Shown here: positions 7,152 through 33,085 of the stretch, in pieces
Position numbering within the stretch: position 1 is the first letter of the stretch
Layout: every line of letters starts with the position of its first letter
Assembly (NCBI RefSeq): GCF_000017625.1
Contig: NC_009712.1
Span: 248,001 to 312,000 of the forward strand
Origin: Methanoregula boonei 6A8
GTDB taxonomy: Archaea; Halobacteriota; Methanomicrobia; Methanomicrobiales; Methanospirillaceae
DNA length: 64,000 bases
Reading direction: 5' to 3'
Translations under genes and position numbers: made by a program
Notes under the pieces: model-generated
What the model saw: only the letters and a program-made list of their open reading frames with translations
What the model was told of the DNA's origin: nothing
The model's database searches: none

Positions 7152-8043
7152 CGCCCGGATACGGCAAGGGTATCTTTTTTTTTCACCAAAGTCGTCCGCT
7201 GCACTCAAGCCCTGCCTCTGGTGCAAGCGGGCGCTTACCGGCGGGGATATGTGCTACAAGCACCAGTTCTACGGAATTGACAGCCACCGCTGCGTCCAGA
7301 TGACGCCCACCCTCCGCTGCAACCAGCGCTGCCTCTTCTGCTGGCGTTCGTTTGAGCACGAAGTGGAAGAGGAGGAAGAGTGCCCTCCGGAAACGATCCT
7401 CGCAGGAGTGCCCAAGCTCCAGAAAAAGGCTCTCGCCGGCTACAATTCTGTACTCGGCAACACCGTGACGGATGAGCGCTGGCAGGAGGCGCTCAAACCC
7501 CGGCATGTTGCGATCTCCCTTTCGGGCGAGCCCACGCTCTACAGCCGGCTCCCGGAACTGGTCGACCTCTTCAACGCGAACGGGTACACGACGTTTGTGG
7601 TCAGCAACGGCACAAACCCGGATATGATTGCTCGGTGCCGGCCGTTTCAACAGTATATTTCGCTCGATGCGCCGGACTGTGAAACCTACGAGAGGGCCTG
7701 CCGGCCCATGGGTAATGCCGAAGCGTTCTGGGATCGGATCCGGGAGAGCCTTGGCAAGCTCCGGGCAAAAAGATCTGCGGTACGGATAACGCTTGTTGCC
7801 GGCGTCAACGATACGGACCCGGAAGGATATGCCCGGATCATACAGGACTCAGGGGCCACCTATGTCGAGGTAAAAGGATACATGTATCTGGGATACAGTA
7901 GAAACCGTTTGCAACGGAATAACATGCCGGAACATGCACAGGTGCGGGACTTTGCAGAGAGGGTCTCCGCATCGTGCGATTATACCATCCGGGATGAAAA
8001 CCCCTTAAGCAGGGTCGTCTGCATGGAGCGCGAGGAACAATGA
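7132..8043 (+). CDS. taw1: S-adenosyl-L-methionine-dependent tRNA 4-demethylwyosine synthase (TYW1/Taw1)
   Basis: Radical-SAM enzyme that makes the tricyclic 4-demethylwyosine at G37 of tRNA-Phe from N1-methylguanosine and pyruvate. The 303-residue protein has the CX3CX2C cluster at Cys63, Cys67 and Cys70, followed by the family WR motif. Extra N-terminal cysteines (28, 31, 41, 54) correspond to the second Fe-S cluster region, in the context [19 protein letters not shown] typical of archaeal TYW1. SLSGEPTLY is the SAM-binding motif. ATG 7132 was chosen over an upstream TTG (7114). It overlaps argS by 20 bases and sepS by 4. Confidence 0.93.
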
Positions 8044-9692
8044 GATTCAACCCACAGGACTGGAAAGAGAAATCCCATACGAATTTCGAAGGCGCATGGC
8101 ACGATGGCCCGTCGGTAATTACGCCGCCGGGGGAAGACAAAAAATATCCCCGCCTCCGGTACACGCGTGCACAGCCGCACCCGATCTTTGCAACCATCAA
8201 CCGGCTGCGCGAGATCTACCTCTCAATGGGATTTGACGAATGTGAGAACCCGGTGATTGTGGAGGAGAGCGACATCTACCGACAGTTCGGTCCCGAGGCA
8301 ATGGCGGTGCTGGACCGGGTCTTCTACATTGGCGGACTCCCGCGCCCGAACGTCGGGATCTCCAGAAAACAGCTGGACGAGATCAACGATATCCTCCAGA
8401 GTCACCGGAGCCCGCTTGTCCATGGACATGAGATCCCGGCAGGCGATAGCGGGAATAAAGAACCGTTCCGTCCGATGAGCAGGGAAACCGAAGAGCAACT
8501 CCGCGAAACCCTCCATGCGTACAAAAAATCAGAGATCGACGGGGACGAACTCACCCATGAGCTGGCAAAAGTCCTTGGGGTCGATGACGGAATTGTCGTA
8601 CATATCCTCGATTCAGTCTTCCCAGAATTCAGGTCGCTCGTGCCCGAGTCCTCGCGCAGCACGCTGCGCAGCCACATGACCAGCGGCTGGTTCATGACCC
8701 TTGGCTCCCTCTGGGAGCGCACGCCACTCCCCATAAAACTCTTCTCGGTAGACCGCTGCTTCCGGCGCGAACAGGCAGAAGGTCCGACCCGGCTCATGAC
8801 TTACCACTCCGCGTCCTGTGTTGTGGCAAGAGAAGATGTCACCATCGAAGATGGCAAAGCGGTAAGCGAAGCGCTCCTCTCTGCATTCGGGTACGAGGAC
8901 TTCCGGTTCCAGCCCGATGACAAACGCTCCAAGTACTATATGCCGGATTCTCAGACTGAAGTGTACGCAAAACATCCGGTGCACGGCTGGGTCGAGGTAG
9001 CAACCTTTGGCATGTACTCTCCGTCGGCCCTGGGGGAGTACGGGATCGGTGTCCCGGTCATGAACCTCGGCCTTGGGGTCGAGCGGCTCGCGATGATCGC
9101 GTACAATGCAAACGATGTCCGGCAGCTCTCGTATCCCCAGTTCTTCCCGCGCCTTGCGGGGGACCGGGAGATCGCATGCGCCGTGCACCTCAGGGAGGAG
9201 CCTGTTACCGTCGAGGGGAAAGCACTTGCGCTCGCAATTGCCCGGGTGGCCGCGGCACATGCCACGGAACAAGGCCCCTGCTCCTTTACCGTATGGGAAG
9301 GTACCCTCTATGGCAGGAACGTGAACGTGATCATTGAGGAGACCGAAGCCAATGCAAAACTCTGCGGTCCTGCATGTGCAAACGAGATCTTTGTCCACGA
9401 GGGAAATATCCTTGGCGTCCCTGACAACGAGAAATGGAAGGACGTGCGCATAAAAGGTATCCCGACCGGAATCTCCTACCTGAGTGCGGTCTCCGCTCTG
9501 GCTGCGGCAAACATTGAACATGCGGCCCGGTGCGGTACCGGCACCCAGGTCCAGGTCAAGATGGCAAAGCATCCCGGTGATATTAACCTTAAGATCGAAG
9601 AGTACGCGATGAGGACGATCACGGATACCAAAAAGAAAGTCGATGTCCGCGGCCCGGTCTTTCTGGCAGTCCGATCAGAGATCGCGGAATAA
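8040..9692 (+). CDS. sepS: O-phosphoseryl-tRNA(Cys) synthetase
   Basis: SepRS, 550 residues, a class II synthetase that charges tRNA-Cys with phosphoserine. SepCysS then converts this to Cys-tRNA, the pathway found in methanogens and some other archaea. The N-terminus [17 protein letters not shown] is characteristic, as are the motif 2 region [20 protein letters not shown] and motif 3 [14 protein letters not shown]. The ATG overlaps the taw1 stop (ATGA). SepCysS is not in this window. A C-terminal anticodon-recognition domain of about 170 residues is intact. Confidence 0.96.
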
Positions 9693-9732: not shown

Positions 9733-11151
9733 CTAGACCCGAGTCCCGTATGATCCTTTCGGGACAAAGATCTCAAACCGGGCACCCTCACCCGGGATGC
9801 CGGTCTCCTGGATCTCCATCTTGGTAATCGCCAGGATCTCCCGGCTCAGGTACAGGCCAAGACCGGTATTCTGGAAGTACTCTCGCCGGAAGATCTTCTC
9901 TTTTGCACCGGCCGGGACACCTATGCCGTTATCCTCGTACACAACCATAAGGCCGTGGTCATCCTCACGTGAGAATACCCGGATAACGGAGACCCTTTCC
10001 CCATGACGCAAGGAGTTTTCCAGGAGGTTGAAAAAGACCTTCTCTATTAAGGGATCCGCATAGACCCAGAGATTATCGAGGTGAATTTCGAGCGTCATAC
10101 GGGAAAGGGCGAGGCTGCCTGCAGCCCGGGAGAAGATCTCCTCCGCATTCTGCCAACGGGGCGCAGCGTTCCCGATCTCCTGGTAGTCCCGGGTAAAGAG
10201 GATCTGGGTCTTCATAGTCTCTGCGGTCGAGATCGCCTTACCCAGGGATTCGCGGACCCGGGGATCTGTACTGGCATTGAGGCAGGACTCCAGGTACCCG
10301 AACATCCCGGTGAGCTGGTTGAGGATGTCATGGCGGGTGATCGAGTTCATTATCCCAAGGTTCCTGAGGGCTTCACGGAGTGCAAATTCCGCAGTCTTCC
10401 GCTCTGTGATGTCCCTTCCTACGGACTGGTATTCGATGATCTTTCCTTCGGCATCAAAGATCGCCCGGTTTTCCCAGTTCTGCCATGCCACCCTGCCATC
10501 GGGAAGGATCCACGGCAGTTCCAGGGTACTGGTCGGGGCATCCGGGGAAAGTGCGCGGAGGTCCTGTAAAAAGAGGTCCTTCTGGCCGAATGGCGGCAGA
10601 TCGACCGTTTTCCCAAAGATTAATTCTTTCTCATTCAGGGAGACGTAACGGCAATAAGCCCCGTTTGCAAAGACCAGTCTGCCGTCAGGCCGGAACCGGA
10701 CAATAAATTCAGACTGGTCCTCCACAACGCTCCGATACCGCTTCTCGCTTTTTTCAAGTTCCTCCTTGATCCGGTGCTGATTTACGGCCTGCGTGACATA
10801 ATGCCTGAGTACCGGAAACACTTTTTCCGGATCCGTCCCTTTGAGAAGGTAATAGGTTGCACCGGTGTTGAGCGCCCGGATGGCGTCATTATGGCTGGAT
10901 TTTTTTGCAAAAATAATAAAGGGGGTTGATTCCTTACGCCCCAACCGTAAGACCTCAAGGAAAGCCTGCCCATCCGTCACCGGCAGGCAGGACTCGGACA
11001 CAATGACATCGAACCGGCGTTCCCGGATAAGATCCAGGGCTTCGTACGCAGATCCGAGCGTCACTACCCGGATCCCGGGGTCAGACTCAAGGAACCCGCG
11101 GACCTCTTCCTGCATACGGGCATCCGGCTCAACGTACAGAACGGAAATCAT
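9733..11151 (-). CDS. Histidine kinase with degenerate receiver, PAS domain
   Basis: A 472-residue cytoplasmic kinase with three parts: a receiver-like domain (about 1-120), a PAS domain with PAC (about 140-260, ending VGRDITERK), and a histidine-kinase core with H-box SITRHDILNQL, N-box FFNLLENSLRHG and G-boxes NGIGVP and NTGLGLYLS. The receiver is abnormal. The phosphoacceptor Asp is Glu53 (VSES), the acidic pair after the first strand is Glu-Pro, and the conserved Thr is Ala82. Lys104 is kept. The two relatives at 31493 and 47637 have intact Asp53. The start was set at MISVLYVE by comparison with them; an in-frame upstream codon would add 11 residues. Confidence 0.88.
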   Translation of the reverse strand: MISVLYVEPDARMQEEVRGFLESDPGIRVVTLGSAYEALDLIRERRFDVIVSESCLPVTDGQAFLEVLRLGRKESTPFIIFAKKSSHNDAIRALNTGATYYLLKGTDPEKVFPVLRHYVTQAVNQHRIKEELEKSEKRYRSVVEDQSEFIVRFRPDGRLVFANGAYCRYVSLNEKELIFGKTVDLPPFGQKDLFLQDLRALSPDAPTSTLELPWILPDGRVAWQNWENRAIFDAEGKIIEYQSVGRDITERKTAEFALREALRNLGIMNSITRHDILNQLTGMFGYLESCLNASTDPRVRESLGKAISTAETMKTQILFTRDYQEIGNAAPRWQNAEEIFSRAAGSLALSRMTLEIHLDNLWVYADPLIEKVFFNLLENSLRHGERVSVIRVFSREDDHGLMVVYEDNGIGVPAGAKEKIFRREYFQNTGLGLYLSREILAITKMEIQETGIPGEGARFEIFVPKGSYGTRV

Positions 11152-11267
11152 ACTTTTGCTGCAATAAGATGGTGGTACTATCACTTACATGTTGGGTTTG
11201 GCGAATTTTTTCCCAAAAAAAATTCCATTTGCCGCACAATGGCAGAATATTTTACAAAAACAAAAAA

Positions 11268-12233
11268 TTATCTGTGGTCCTGCAGGAAAATCCGCCGGTT
11301 GATGATCCGCCACGAGAGGAGCAGCTGGACAATATTGGTCGGGGTCACAACCTTTCGCCCGGCAAACATCTCTATAGGGTGGATTCCGGTCTGGTGCTCG
11401 ATTGAGAGTTCCAGATTACGGACCGTATCGTAATTCATCTCCCCGTCAAAGGTGAGTGAGCGCAAAAAAGAACATTCGATCCTCTGCGTTGAAAATTCAA
11501 TAGAGAACTCACTTTCATGGAAGGCAAGCAGGGAGGTGAGATCGATAGAGAGGGATGTATTGCGGACTGCCTGGTCCATCGGGTTCTGGAGCAGGGAGAT
11601 GGAGTATACATTTTTTGCAGGCCCGAGATCCTTCCCGTACTTCGAGTACCCGATCCGAATAATTGCATCGGCATTGCAGCGCTGAGGTTCGATATATGTC
11701 GCATAATCTGCTTCGCGCCGGGCAATCTCCCCGTTGACCTCGTCCGGGGAATACCCCCGCTGCCCGGTATCGCGCTGCCGTTTCCATGCATACTTGACCT
11801 CCCGGTCCGGATCGACAAAGACGGAGAAATCCACAAGATCCCGGAGAGCCGGCGTAAAGAGGGTGTGGAGGCCTTCAAGGATCAGGATCTTTTTTGAAGG
11901 AAACGGGATGGGTGGATCGAATGTGCCTGTTGCATGATTGTATACCGGTTTTTCAATCGCGTAGCCTTGTTTAAGGTGTGCCACGTCTGCTTCAAGCCCT
12001 GAGAGATTATTTGCATCGGGATGGAGCGGGGTAATATCGAGGTGGTGGCGCTCCTCCCGGTCATACGTGTGATAGTCATCCAGCGTGATGGTGGCAACAA
12101 GGTCAGGGCCGAAGATCTCGCGGATGGCGTTGGTGAATGTGGTTTTTCCCGATCCGCTGTCACCTGCAACGCCGATGACAAAGACAAGTGGAGAGCGGGC
12201 GATGATCTCCTTGAACGGGGGAGTACGGGGCAT
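11268..12233 (-). CDS. prk: Phosphoribulokinase, archaeal type
   Basis: A 321-residue P-loop kinase of the phosphoribulokinase/uridine kinase family. The P-loop is GDSGSGKTT (residues 24-32). Segments diagnostic of phosphoribulokinase follow: LDDYHTYDREERHHLDITPL, then PDANN, then KPVYNHATGTFDPP, LILEGLH and YIEPQRCNADAIIRI. These match PRK rather than uridine kinase. The reaction is ATP-dependent phosphorylation of ribulose 5-phosphate to ribulose 1,5-bisphosphate, the RuBisCO substrate. In Methanomicrobiales, PRK works with RuBisCO in the reductive hexulose-phosphate pathway (literature knowledge). RuBisCO is not in this window. Confidence 0.85.
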   Translation of the reverse strand: MPRTPPFKEIIARSPLVFVIGVAGDSGSGKTTFTNAIREIFGPDLVATITLDDYHTYDREERHHLDITPLHPDANNLSGLEADVAHLKQGYAIEKPVYNHATGTFDPPIPFPSKKILILEGLHTLFTPALRDLVDFSVFVDPDREVKYAWKRQRDTGQRGYSPDEVNGEIARREADYATYIEPQRCNADAIIRIGYSKYGKDLGPAKNVYSISLLQNPMDQAVRNTSLSIDLTSLLAFHESEFSIEFSTQRIECSFLRSLTFDGEMNYDTVRNLELSIEHQTGIHPIEMFAGRKVVTPTNIVQLLLSWRIINRRIFLQDHR

Positions 12234-12387: not shown

Positions 12388-12774
12388 ATGAAACCGAGAA
12401 ACATTTACCGGATTGTTATCGGGCTCCTGTTTATTCTGACCGGGGCAGTTGCCGGCCTGTCCTCATCAGGGAACATCGTCCTCCCGGTGATCCTCCTTGC
12501 AGCCGGTGCCGCATTTCTTACTACCGGCCTTATCCGGCACAACCGCTATGGCGATGACCCGGAATCGGACGAGCGCTCAAAAAAGATCGGGGCGTACGGG
12601 CTTTCGTATGCATGGATGACCGGTGCTGTGGGGATAACCCTGCTCTTCTGGGGAGAGTACGCCGGAATCGGACACCTTGGAGGGACGGAGGCACTGGAGC
12701 TGTCCGTGCTCCTGCTGGTAATCCCGGCGGTTGTCTTCCAGGCCTACCTTTTCCGCAAAGGGGATGTAGAGTGA
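12388..12774 (+). CDS. Small integral membrane protein, four predicted TM segments
   Basis: A 128-residue hydrophobic protein with membrane segments near residues 8-28, 31-50, 70-90 and 100-120, and a charged loop ([18 protein letters not shown]) in the middle. It resembles the DUF2178-type membrane proteins often encoded next to small XRE regulators; the assignment is by pattern only. The last bases overlap a possible GTG start of the downstream regulator (GTGA), so the two are co-translated. A role in sensing for the regulator is inference. Confidence 0.75.
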
Positions 12775-12797
12775 GACTGAATGGCAGGATTGCATTC

Positions 12798-13031
12798 ATG
12801 CAGACGAAAATAAAGGAATGCCGGGCCCGGTACTCCCTCACTCAGGATGAACTCGCCAAAAAGGTGGGCGTGCGGCGCGAAACGATCGTCTTTCTCGAAC
12901 AGGGGAAGTACAACCCGTCGCTCAAACTTGCGCACGATGTGGCAAAAACCCTGCATACGACCATCGACGAGCTCTTTATCTTCGACGACGATGAGCCCGG
13001 GCCCGAGAGCAGGGTCGTGCTTGTGGACTAA
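12798..13031 (+). CDS. XRE-family helix-turn-helix transcriptional regulator
   Basis: A 77-residue stand-alone HTH_3 protein: [20 protein letters not shown], then [20 protein letters not shown], then [20 protein letters not shown]. All helices of a Cro/C1-type fold are present and there is no effector domain. Residues match the short archaeal and bacterial regulators paired with DUF2178-like membrane proteins. An upstream in-frame GTG at 12771, which overlaps the stop of the membrane protein, would add nine residues. I chose ATG 12798 because family members start there. The gene ends 10 bases from the convergent mrfA-like gene. Confidence 0.85.
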
Positions 13032-31492: not shown

Positions 31493-33085
31493 ATGATCTC
31501 TGCACTCTACGTGGATGATGATCCCGACCTGCTTGAGGTAGGCAGGCTCTTTTTGGAGCGATCAGGGAATATCCGGATTGAAACTGCATTATCCGCAGAA
31601 GAAGGCCTGAACAAACTCAGGACCACACCTTATGATATCGTCATCTCTGATTACCAGATGCCCGGGATGGACGGGATCGCATTTTTAAAAGTCGTCCGTA
31701 CCCGGTATCCCAAACTTCCCTTTGTCATCTTCACCGGCCGGGGACGGGAAGAGGTTGCTATTGAAGCCCTCAACAGCGGAGCAGACCGGTATATCCAGAA
31801 AGGCGGCGACCCCCGGTCCCAGTTTACCGAGCTTATCCATACTGTAAAGGACTCTGTGGAGAAGAGGCGGACACAGGAAGAGATCATTCACCTTAACCGT
31901 CTGTACTCGGTGATCTCGCGGACCAACCGGGCGACCATCCACATCCGGGACCGGCAGGCGCTCCTTGACGAGGCCTGCAGGATCGCGGTGGAGGAAGGAA
32001 AATTCCTGATGGCCTGGATCGGTATCGTGGATCCGGCAACCCGCGAGGTCCGCCCGGTTGCAGCCTGCGGGTACGAGGCGGGGTACCTGAGCCTGCTTTC
32101 TATTACCGTAGACAATGTGCCGCAGGGAATGGGGCTGACCGGCTCCTGCATCCGCGAAGGGTGCCCGATGGTCTGCAACGAGATCCTGTCCGATCCGCGG
32201 ATGGAAGACTATCGCGAGGAAGCTGCACGGCGCGGGTACTGCTCGTCGGCCTCGTTTCCGCTCCGGGACGGAAACGAAATTATCGGTGCCATGCGGTTTT
32301 ACTCGGGAGAGTGTAACTTCTTTAATGATCGCGAGCTGGCACTTTTGCGGGAGCTCACCGATGATATCTCATTTGCGCTTGAGATGATGGAGCGCGATTC
32401 CACGCTCGCAGAGCTCGCGCTCTCCAACCGGAAACTCAACCTGCTCAATGACCTTATCCGTCACGATATCCTCAACACGCTCACCGGTCTTCTGGGCCTT
32501 GAGGATATGGCCGCAACCCGGTTATCGGATCCAACCGCAACCGGTCAGATTCTTGACGAGATCAGGGAGAGTACAAAGCGCATCCAGCAGCAAATCACCT
32601 TTACCCGTGATTACCAGAATATCGGGGTGCATGCACCGCAATGGCAGGACCTTCATGCTGTGGTAACAAGGGCGGCGGACCCGGCAAATCCCGGACCGGT
32701 GGCTCTCAAAATAACAATTGACAAGGATCTGGAAGTCTACGCTGATGCGATGCTTGAAAAGGTCTTCTTTAATCTCATCGACAACGCACTCCGGTACGGC
32801 GGCGGGGATCTCACCAGGATCGCTCTTTCTGTCCGCACGGAGTGTTCCTGCATCATCATCACCTGCCAGGATGACGGGCCGGGGATTCCGGATGCAGAAA
32901 AAGAACGGATATTTGATTCAGGGTTCGGGAAGAACACCGGTCTTGGCCTCTTTTTGGCCCGGGAGATTCTTGGAATCTCCGGGCTCTCGATCCGGGAAAC
33001 CGGGATATCCGGCAAAGGCGCCTGCTTCGAGATTACTGTGCCGGAACAGGCATGGCGGCGTAAGCGTGTTCCCTCCTTGAAGTGA
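31493..33085 (+). CDS. Receiver-GAF histidine kinase (530 aa)
   Basis: The domain order is receiver (1-120; Asp53 in VISDYQMPGMDG, acidic pair DD at 8-9, Thr in IFTGRG, Lys in YIQKGG), then a GAF domain (about 145-300, ending FALEMMERD), then the kinase core (H-box NDLIRHDILNTLTG, N-box FFNLIDNALRYGG, G-boxes DDGPGIP and NTGLGLFLA). All key residues are intact. It is a cytoplasmic hybrid with N-terminal REC, a layout common in Methanomicrobiales. No cognate output protein is adjacent. Confidence 0.92.
   Translation: MISALYVDDDPDLLEVGRLFLERSGNIRIETALSAEEGLNKLRTTPYDIVISDYQMPGMDGIAFLKVVRTRYPKLPFVIFTGRGREEVAIEALNSGADRYIQKGGDPRSQFTELIHTVKDSVEKRRTQEEIIHLNRLYSVISRTNRATIHIRDRQALLDEACRIAVEEGKFLMAWIGIVDPATREVRPVAACGYEAGYLSLLSITVDNVPQGMGLTGSCIREGCPMVCNEILSDPRMEDYREEAARRGYCSSASFPLRDGNEIIGAMRFYSGECNFFNDRELALLRELTDDISFALEMMERDSTLAELALSNRKLNLLNDLIRHDILNTLTGLLGLEDMAATRLSDPTATGQILDEIRESTKRIQQQITFTRDYQNIGVHAPQWQDLHAVVTRAADPANPGPVALKITIDKDLEVYADAMLEKVFFNLIDNALRYGGGDLTRIALSVRTECSCIIITCQDDGPGIPDAEKERIFDSGFGKNTGLGLFLAREILGISGLSIRETGISGKGACFEITVPEQAWRRKRVPSLK

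Follow-up and report, generated by a model that had tools for sequence, protein, structure and literature searches.

A conserved pseudo-receiver with glutamate at the acceptor site in a histidine kinase of Methanoregula boonei

Receiver domains lacking the phospho-acceptor aspartate have been estimated, in excerpts of two published accounts, to make up to 10% of archaeal receivers (Maule 2015, PMC4395418) or, as cited by Bourret 2025 (PMC12632262), 10–15% of them. Histidine kinases joined to a receiver (REC-HisK) account for almost 20% of archaeal REC proteins, and up to 40% of their receivers are possibly not phosphorylated, according to an excerpt of a 2018 census (Galperin 2018, PMC5847659); in that excerpt, no archaeal REC-kinase with an N-terminal REC followed by PAS and HisKA-HATPase is characterised. 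Likewise, in the excerpted text of the 2025 review, its authors are aware of no published function study for any archaeal pseudo-receiver (PMC12632262). The same text counts a Thr-to-Ala change at the switch position and the absence of the second acid among the common replacements, and states that the site is accessible when the T+1 residue is small and that Y-T coupling requires the residues at both T and K-3. As regards archaeal kinase activity, the tested H-box kinases of Methanosarcina acetivorans are true autokinases (excerpt of PMC11784639).

The REC-kinase LvrB of Leptospira provides an experimental reference. When its receiver is phosphorylated, the signalling helices assemble into a coiled coil and the catalytic domains are freed; in the excerpted study, a D56A variant stays fixed at the basal level of activity, and the response is blocked in S84A and T86A variants (PMC13269768).

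The kinase described here is encoded within 64,000 nucleotides of the Methanoregula boonei 6A8 genome (contig NC_009712.1, positions 248,001 to 312,000), hereafter the window, whose coordinates are used below. Among the papers found for M. boonei together with histidine kinase, none concerns this protein, judged by title. The features of the locus are:

8040..9692 (+): O-phosphoseryl-tRNA synthetase (SepRS; Pfam SepRS_C), converging and conserved neighbour
9733..11151 (-): REC-PAS-histidine kinase, 472 amino acids
9736..10116 (-): catalytic ATPase domain (Pfam HATPase_c), with N379, DNGIG at 407–411 and NTGLGL at 428–433
10330..10332 (-): His274 in TRHDILNQL, predicted autophosphorylation site, invariant in the kinase and its six orthologues (7 of 7)
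10396..10740 (-): PAS domain, about residues 138–252 (Pfam PAS_4 147–252, PAS 138–248)
10717..10830 (-): predicted long helix, residues 108–145, alpha5 extended as a signalling helix toward PAS (AlphaFold2, low-confidence full-length model)
10798..11151 (-): pseudo-receiver, residues 1–118, (beta-alpha)5 fold (Pfam, AlphaFold2, and receivers as the closest solved folds)
10840..10842 (-): Lys104, conserved active-site lysine, kept (residues and alignment)
10903..10908 (-): Ala82-Lys83, at the switch Thr and the adjoining small residue (alignment)
10993..10995 (-): Glu53, codon GAG, at the phospho-acceptor Asp site (residues and alignment)
11125..11130 (-): Glu8-Pro9, the metal-binding acidic pair without its second acid (residues and alignment)
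11268..12233 (-): phosphoribulokinase/uridine kinase family protein (PRK; Pfam PRK), upstream and conserved neighbour

The ATG at 11151 was preferred as the start to the GTG at 11184, which would give a longer reading frame (9733–11184, minus strand), as this ATG is common to all six full-length orthologues. From it the protein has the layout of a REC-HisK in one chain, with an N-terminal REC (Response_reg at residues 4–111, 56.7 bits against a cut-off of 30.2), a PAS domain, and C-terminal HisKA and HATPase_c (residues 369–465); the HisKA match lies below its cut-off (20.0 versus 26.9 bits), and the H-box is invariant. By sequence, all motifs of an active histidine kinase are present, namely the H-box (with its His), the N-box, DxGxG and G2, and N379, D407, G409, G411 and N428–L433 of the ATPase domain are invariant in the seven group members, that is, the window kinase and its orthologues. 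The role of His274 is our reading of the H-box motif. The preliminary description of this gene as a histidine kinase with a pseudo-receiver is upheld. In NCBIfam, the general PAS-domain model TIGR00229 scored 44.8 bits (cut-off 22.9), and the other matches, among the 25 of 118 matches listed, were partial and below cut-off. The kinase is predicted to be cytosolic. A promoter and terminator scan, in which the promoter models were bacterial, gave no excess over shuffled sequence.

Orthologues were sought among 80 relatives and then in 39 genomes of the genus, yielding six full-length, syntenic sequences at 54–56% identity, with the next full-length relative at 42%. Five of these six have SepRS, PRK and a small gene beyond PRK around the kinase, arranged as in the window; the sixth (L005, genome G013) has the same neighbours, with SepRS cut by the contig end. 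A further relative (L018, genome G032) ends at a contig end before the receiver and was left out of all receiver counts. At 12388–13031 (plus strand) the small gene, which is hydrophobic by eye and also conserved beside the kinase orthologues, is followed by a short HTH_3 regulator, the two being divergent from the PRK-kinase pair.

The receiver of the window kinase reads Glu8-Pro9, Glu53, Ala82 and Lys104 at its pocket positions. For comparison we used a canonical set of 44 relatives, not including L201 and L185, whose receivers are degenerate and lack Glu; the out-of-frame L194 was left out of both the tree and the residue counts. The acceptor site is Glu in 7/7 group members versus Asp in 44/44 canonical relatives, the switch Thr site is Ala in 7/7 (Thr in 42/44 of the canonical set), and position 83 is Lys in 7/7 versus Gly in 44/44. 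At the second acid, canonically Asp9, four group members have Pro and three have Ser, and the first acidic position is Glu in the window protein and Asp in the six orthologues. The group retains Lys104, Gly61 and an aromatic residue at K-3, the lysine and the aromatic in all seven. Outside the pocket, the clade differs by further fixed changes (Leu14 to Gln, Lys66 to Glu, Gln103 to Leu and Ser/Ala110 to Lys, among others), and clade-specific conserved residues are found in the beta5-alpha5 region, at 99, 103, 110, 111 and 114. The fold of a receiver is recognised, the acceptor Asp and other catalytic residues are absent, and we class the domain, from its residues and fold, as a conserved pseudo-receiver.

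Glu53, Ala82 and Lys104 are common to all six full-length orthologues, whose second acid is replaced by Ser or Pro; in L008 and L021, the full-length relatives that come next, the acceptor is Asp, the Thr is kept and the acidic pair is complete. The preliminary description had allowed that Glu53 might be a lone mutation or a sequencing error, with Asp in the orthologues; this is ruled out by the presence of Glu in all seven sequences, six of which encode it differently (GAA in 6/6 orthologues, GAG in the window). It had correctly described the window relatives at 31493 and 47628 as intact (D-D, D, T, K). Its reading of the Glu-Pro acidic pair was right as to the residues, but Glu8 is ordinary, Glu occupying the first acidic position in 19 of the 63 other host receivers, and the true loss is that of the second acid. 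Lys83, which stands in place of Gly beside the lost Thr, was absent from that description, as was the strand of the gene.

To place the group among its wider relatives, a profile of the seven receivers was searched against 232 genomes of the order. The group members scored 203–231 bits and the next match 119.6 bits. The next matches were read at 23 loci, with Asp at the acceptor in 22, Ser in one (L201) and Glu in none, and Glu53 as a trait of a wider family was rejected among these loci. A tree of 30 REC-kinases unites the seven in a single clade (100/100 support), and the other 23 all have Asp; clade support and the single change on the tree indicate one origin for the Glu53 state. L201 (G178:C2:76993-77337), the top match to the profile outside the clade, lies in a 1532-residue ORF of another genus and has Ser at both the acceptor and the Thr position, with Gly at the second acid. 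When genome contigs were scanned with the kinase protein alone, only one distant relative was found, on an Omnitrophota contig, and a plasmid search returned seven records, all below 60% identity.

The host genome has 64 receivers that match PF00072. Glu is found at the acceptor in two of the 64 aligned sequences, the window kinase and a 131-residue REC-only protein, and the Thr column of the other 63 holds 53 Thr, 7 Ser, 1 Val, 1 His and 1 Ala. The REC-only protein (L166, G000:C1:1003220-1003528, outside the window) has Asn at the second acid and keeps Thr and Lys, which makes it a better phosphomimetic candidate than the window kinase. Three host receivers, L172, L173 and L174, are short or truncated and lack either the switch Thr or, as far as can be told by eye, the Asp of the acceptor site; in L173, which carries an insert, visual inspection suggests Tyr at that site.

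Selective constraint was estimated as pairwise omega (Nei-Gojobori, NG86) among the six orthologues, and the values are rough because dS is often >1. For the receiver, omega was 0.09–0.24 in 14 of the 15 pairs, those with defined dS, the remaining pair being saturated; for the DHp and ATPase domains it was 0.10–0.23 and 0.09–0.22, respectively (15/15 pairs each). In pairs with the window protein, for which dS is high or saturated, receiver omega was 0.10–0.32 in five of six. Purifying selection acts on the receiver, which evolves about as fast as the kinase domains and so appears to be retained for some purpose.

The gene itself is dispensable, being absent at the locus in several close relatives. 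In G029, G020 and G017, SepRS and PRK are direct neighbours and the kinase is missing, and in G009, which has a gap of roughly 330 bases, nothing matches the kinase. In G015, a 33-residue kinase remnant (L131, G015:C1:668400-670600) lies between SepRS and a broken phosphoribulokinase-family gene, which is in two shifted pieces with one TGA reported. In a SepRS tree of 30 genomes, six of them with the kinase gene (midpoint root, quick search without bootstraps, G030 and G013, which both have the kinase, not included), the gene turns up in both halves of the genus as divided by that root, interspersed with genomes that lack it, the absences having been checked base by base only in part. This distribution fits one early gain followed by several losses, that is, an old gene with repeated loss, and therefore Glu53 has been kept wherever the gene survives.

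An AlphaFold2 model of the receiver, made with the two window relatives as alignment input, has a mean pLDDT of 88.5 and a pTM of 0.86, with five strands, five helices and a final helix at 108–134; in the full-length model, which is poor (mean pLDDT 58), this helix spans 108–145. Glu53, Ala82 and Lys104 stand in the sequence as originally described, and Pfam and the model bear out the receiver fold. Structural matches found with Foldseek and VIA-align are ordinary receivers, including the Methanospirillum receiver 3crn and the BeF3-bound dual-sensor kinase 6oaq; they are silent on the state of the receiver, because active and inactive forms are mixed among them.

We favour, with a probability of about one half, a fixed pseudo-receiver that would act as a dimer or docking module and leave the PAS domain mainly in control, because the clade joins an activating Glu, a disabling Thr-to-Ala change, a Lys at the access position and a lost metal ligand. 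Phospho-transfer to the receiver would have been lost; Glu53 would be held by Lys83 and Lys104, through putative salt bridges, in a fixed, non-switching pocket; and the receiver would remain, on the long alpha5 signalling helix, as a module for permanent dimerisation or docking. A former two-input kinase, responding to phospho-REC and a PAS ligand, may in this way have come mainly under PAS control, or under that of a partner binding the receiver surface. This reading is supported by the intact REC fold and the continuation of alpha5 as a long helix in the AlphaFold2 models, an arrangement through which LvrB signals (PMC13269768), and the clade-invariant Q14, E66, L103 and K110 outside the pocket fit a retained interaction surface. 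The fixed pocket replacements, the single origin of the clade, the purifying selection on REC and the invariant kinase motifs also speak for it. With Lys83 at T+1 and Ala at T, the domain does not look like a phospho-switch by the review's two criteria given above. The preliminary description had instead suggested a phosphomimetic lock, in which Glu53 would mimic phospho-Asp and hold the receiver active and the kinase constitutively on, with PAS only tuning it. This is possible but not favoured: D56E does make LvrB constitutively active (excerpt of PMC13269768), Asp-less receivers most often carry Glu in place of the Asp (26%, excerpt of PMC4395418), and Lys104 and the aromatic K-3 are kept throughout the clade. 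However, a Glu mimic is thought to work via Thr and Lys (excerpt of PMC12632262), and of these only Lys104 is retained, Thr82 being Ala, and Gly83 being Lys, in all seven; moreover, S84A and T86A in LvrB lower basal activity and abolish the response to pseudo-phosphorylation (PMC13269768), and the activity of ChxR is independent of its natural Glu (PMC4395418).

The receiver may instead bind another signal, as also suggested originally. A domain sensing a small molecule or a partner, and thereby inhibiting or releasing the kinase, would have parallels in ShkA (cyclic di-GMP) and CikA (quinone, KaiB), which are pseudo-receivers within histidine kinases (excerpt of PMC12632262), and the clade-specific residues of the beta5-alpha5 region could be read in its favour; we consider it rather unlikely, since no ligand or partner is indicated for the window receiver, which is N-terminal and ahead of PAS, whereas the excerpted review describes ShkA and CikA as hybrid kinases. 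It is doubtful, too, that Glu53, Lys83 and Lys104 replace the metal and phosphate chemistry in a self-contained ionic switch whose pocket a partner or metabolite would open; were this true, the receiver of this archaeal kinase would take its input without phosphate. That the receiver has lost its function and is drifting is largely refuted: in its favour, the gene is missing in close relatives, with a short remnant in G015, but the replacements at 53, 82 and 83 are the same in all seven members, omega is low and kinase-like, and Glu has been retained across a codon change. Finally, phosphorylation of Glu is possible in principle (excerpt of PMC4395418), but continued phosphorylation of the receiver, on Glu53 or another residue, is highly improbable, as the second metal-binding acid and Thr are both lost and Lys83 occupies the site where a small residue gives access (excerpt of PMC12632262). 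Judged by residues only, receiver phosphorylation would not be the input here as it is in LvrB, the acceptor, second acid and Thr being replaced in 7/7. The fixed-module reading remains the one we prefer.

Seven orthologues with one fixed set of replacements in a 472-residue kinase offer a handy case in which to ask whether Glu, where it occurs naturally at the acceptor, switches the receiver on, locks it or makes no difference.

Among known systems, the dual-sensor kinase of PDB entries 6oaq and 6ob8, probably that of Shin et al. 2019, resembles the window kinase in having a receiver within a sensor histidine kinase, and is among its structural matches; unlike the window kinase it is, by the entry titles, light-sensing with a BeF3-bound receiver. 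LvrB, too, carries its REC at the N-terminus and connects it to the kinase through a long signalling helix, but possesses a phosphorylatable Asp56 and lacks a PAS domain (PMC13269768). ShkA and CikA share a pseudo-receiver within a histidine kinase, but bind known ligands and inhibit the kinase (excerpt of PMC12632262). The Asp-to-Glu change, the loss of the second acid and the Thr-to-Ala change are each common in Asp-less and pseudo-receivers; the studied pseudo-receivers, as far as the excerpts extend, are bacterial, plant or fungal, whereas the window kinase is archaeal (PMC4395418, PMC12632262). Closest in layout are the archaeal REC-HisK proteins of the 2018 census (PMC5847659), in which an N-terminal REC is likewise followed by PAS and then HisKA-HATPase; unlike these, none of which is characterised in the excerpted census, the clade described here has one fixed Glu/Ala/Lys pocket. 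The kind is therefore already known, archaeal REC-kinases with unphosphorylatable receivers having been surveyed, and what is new is one more such clade.
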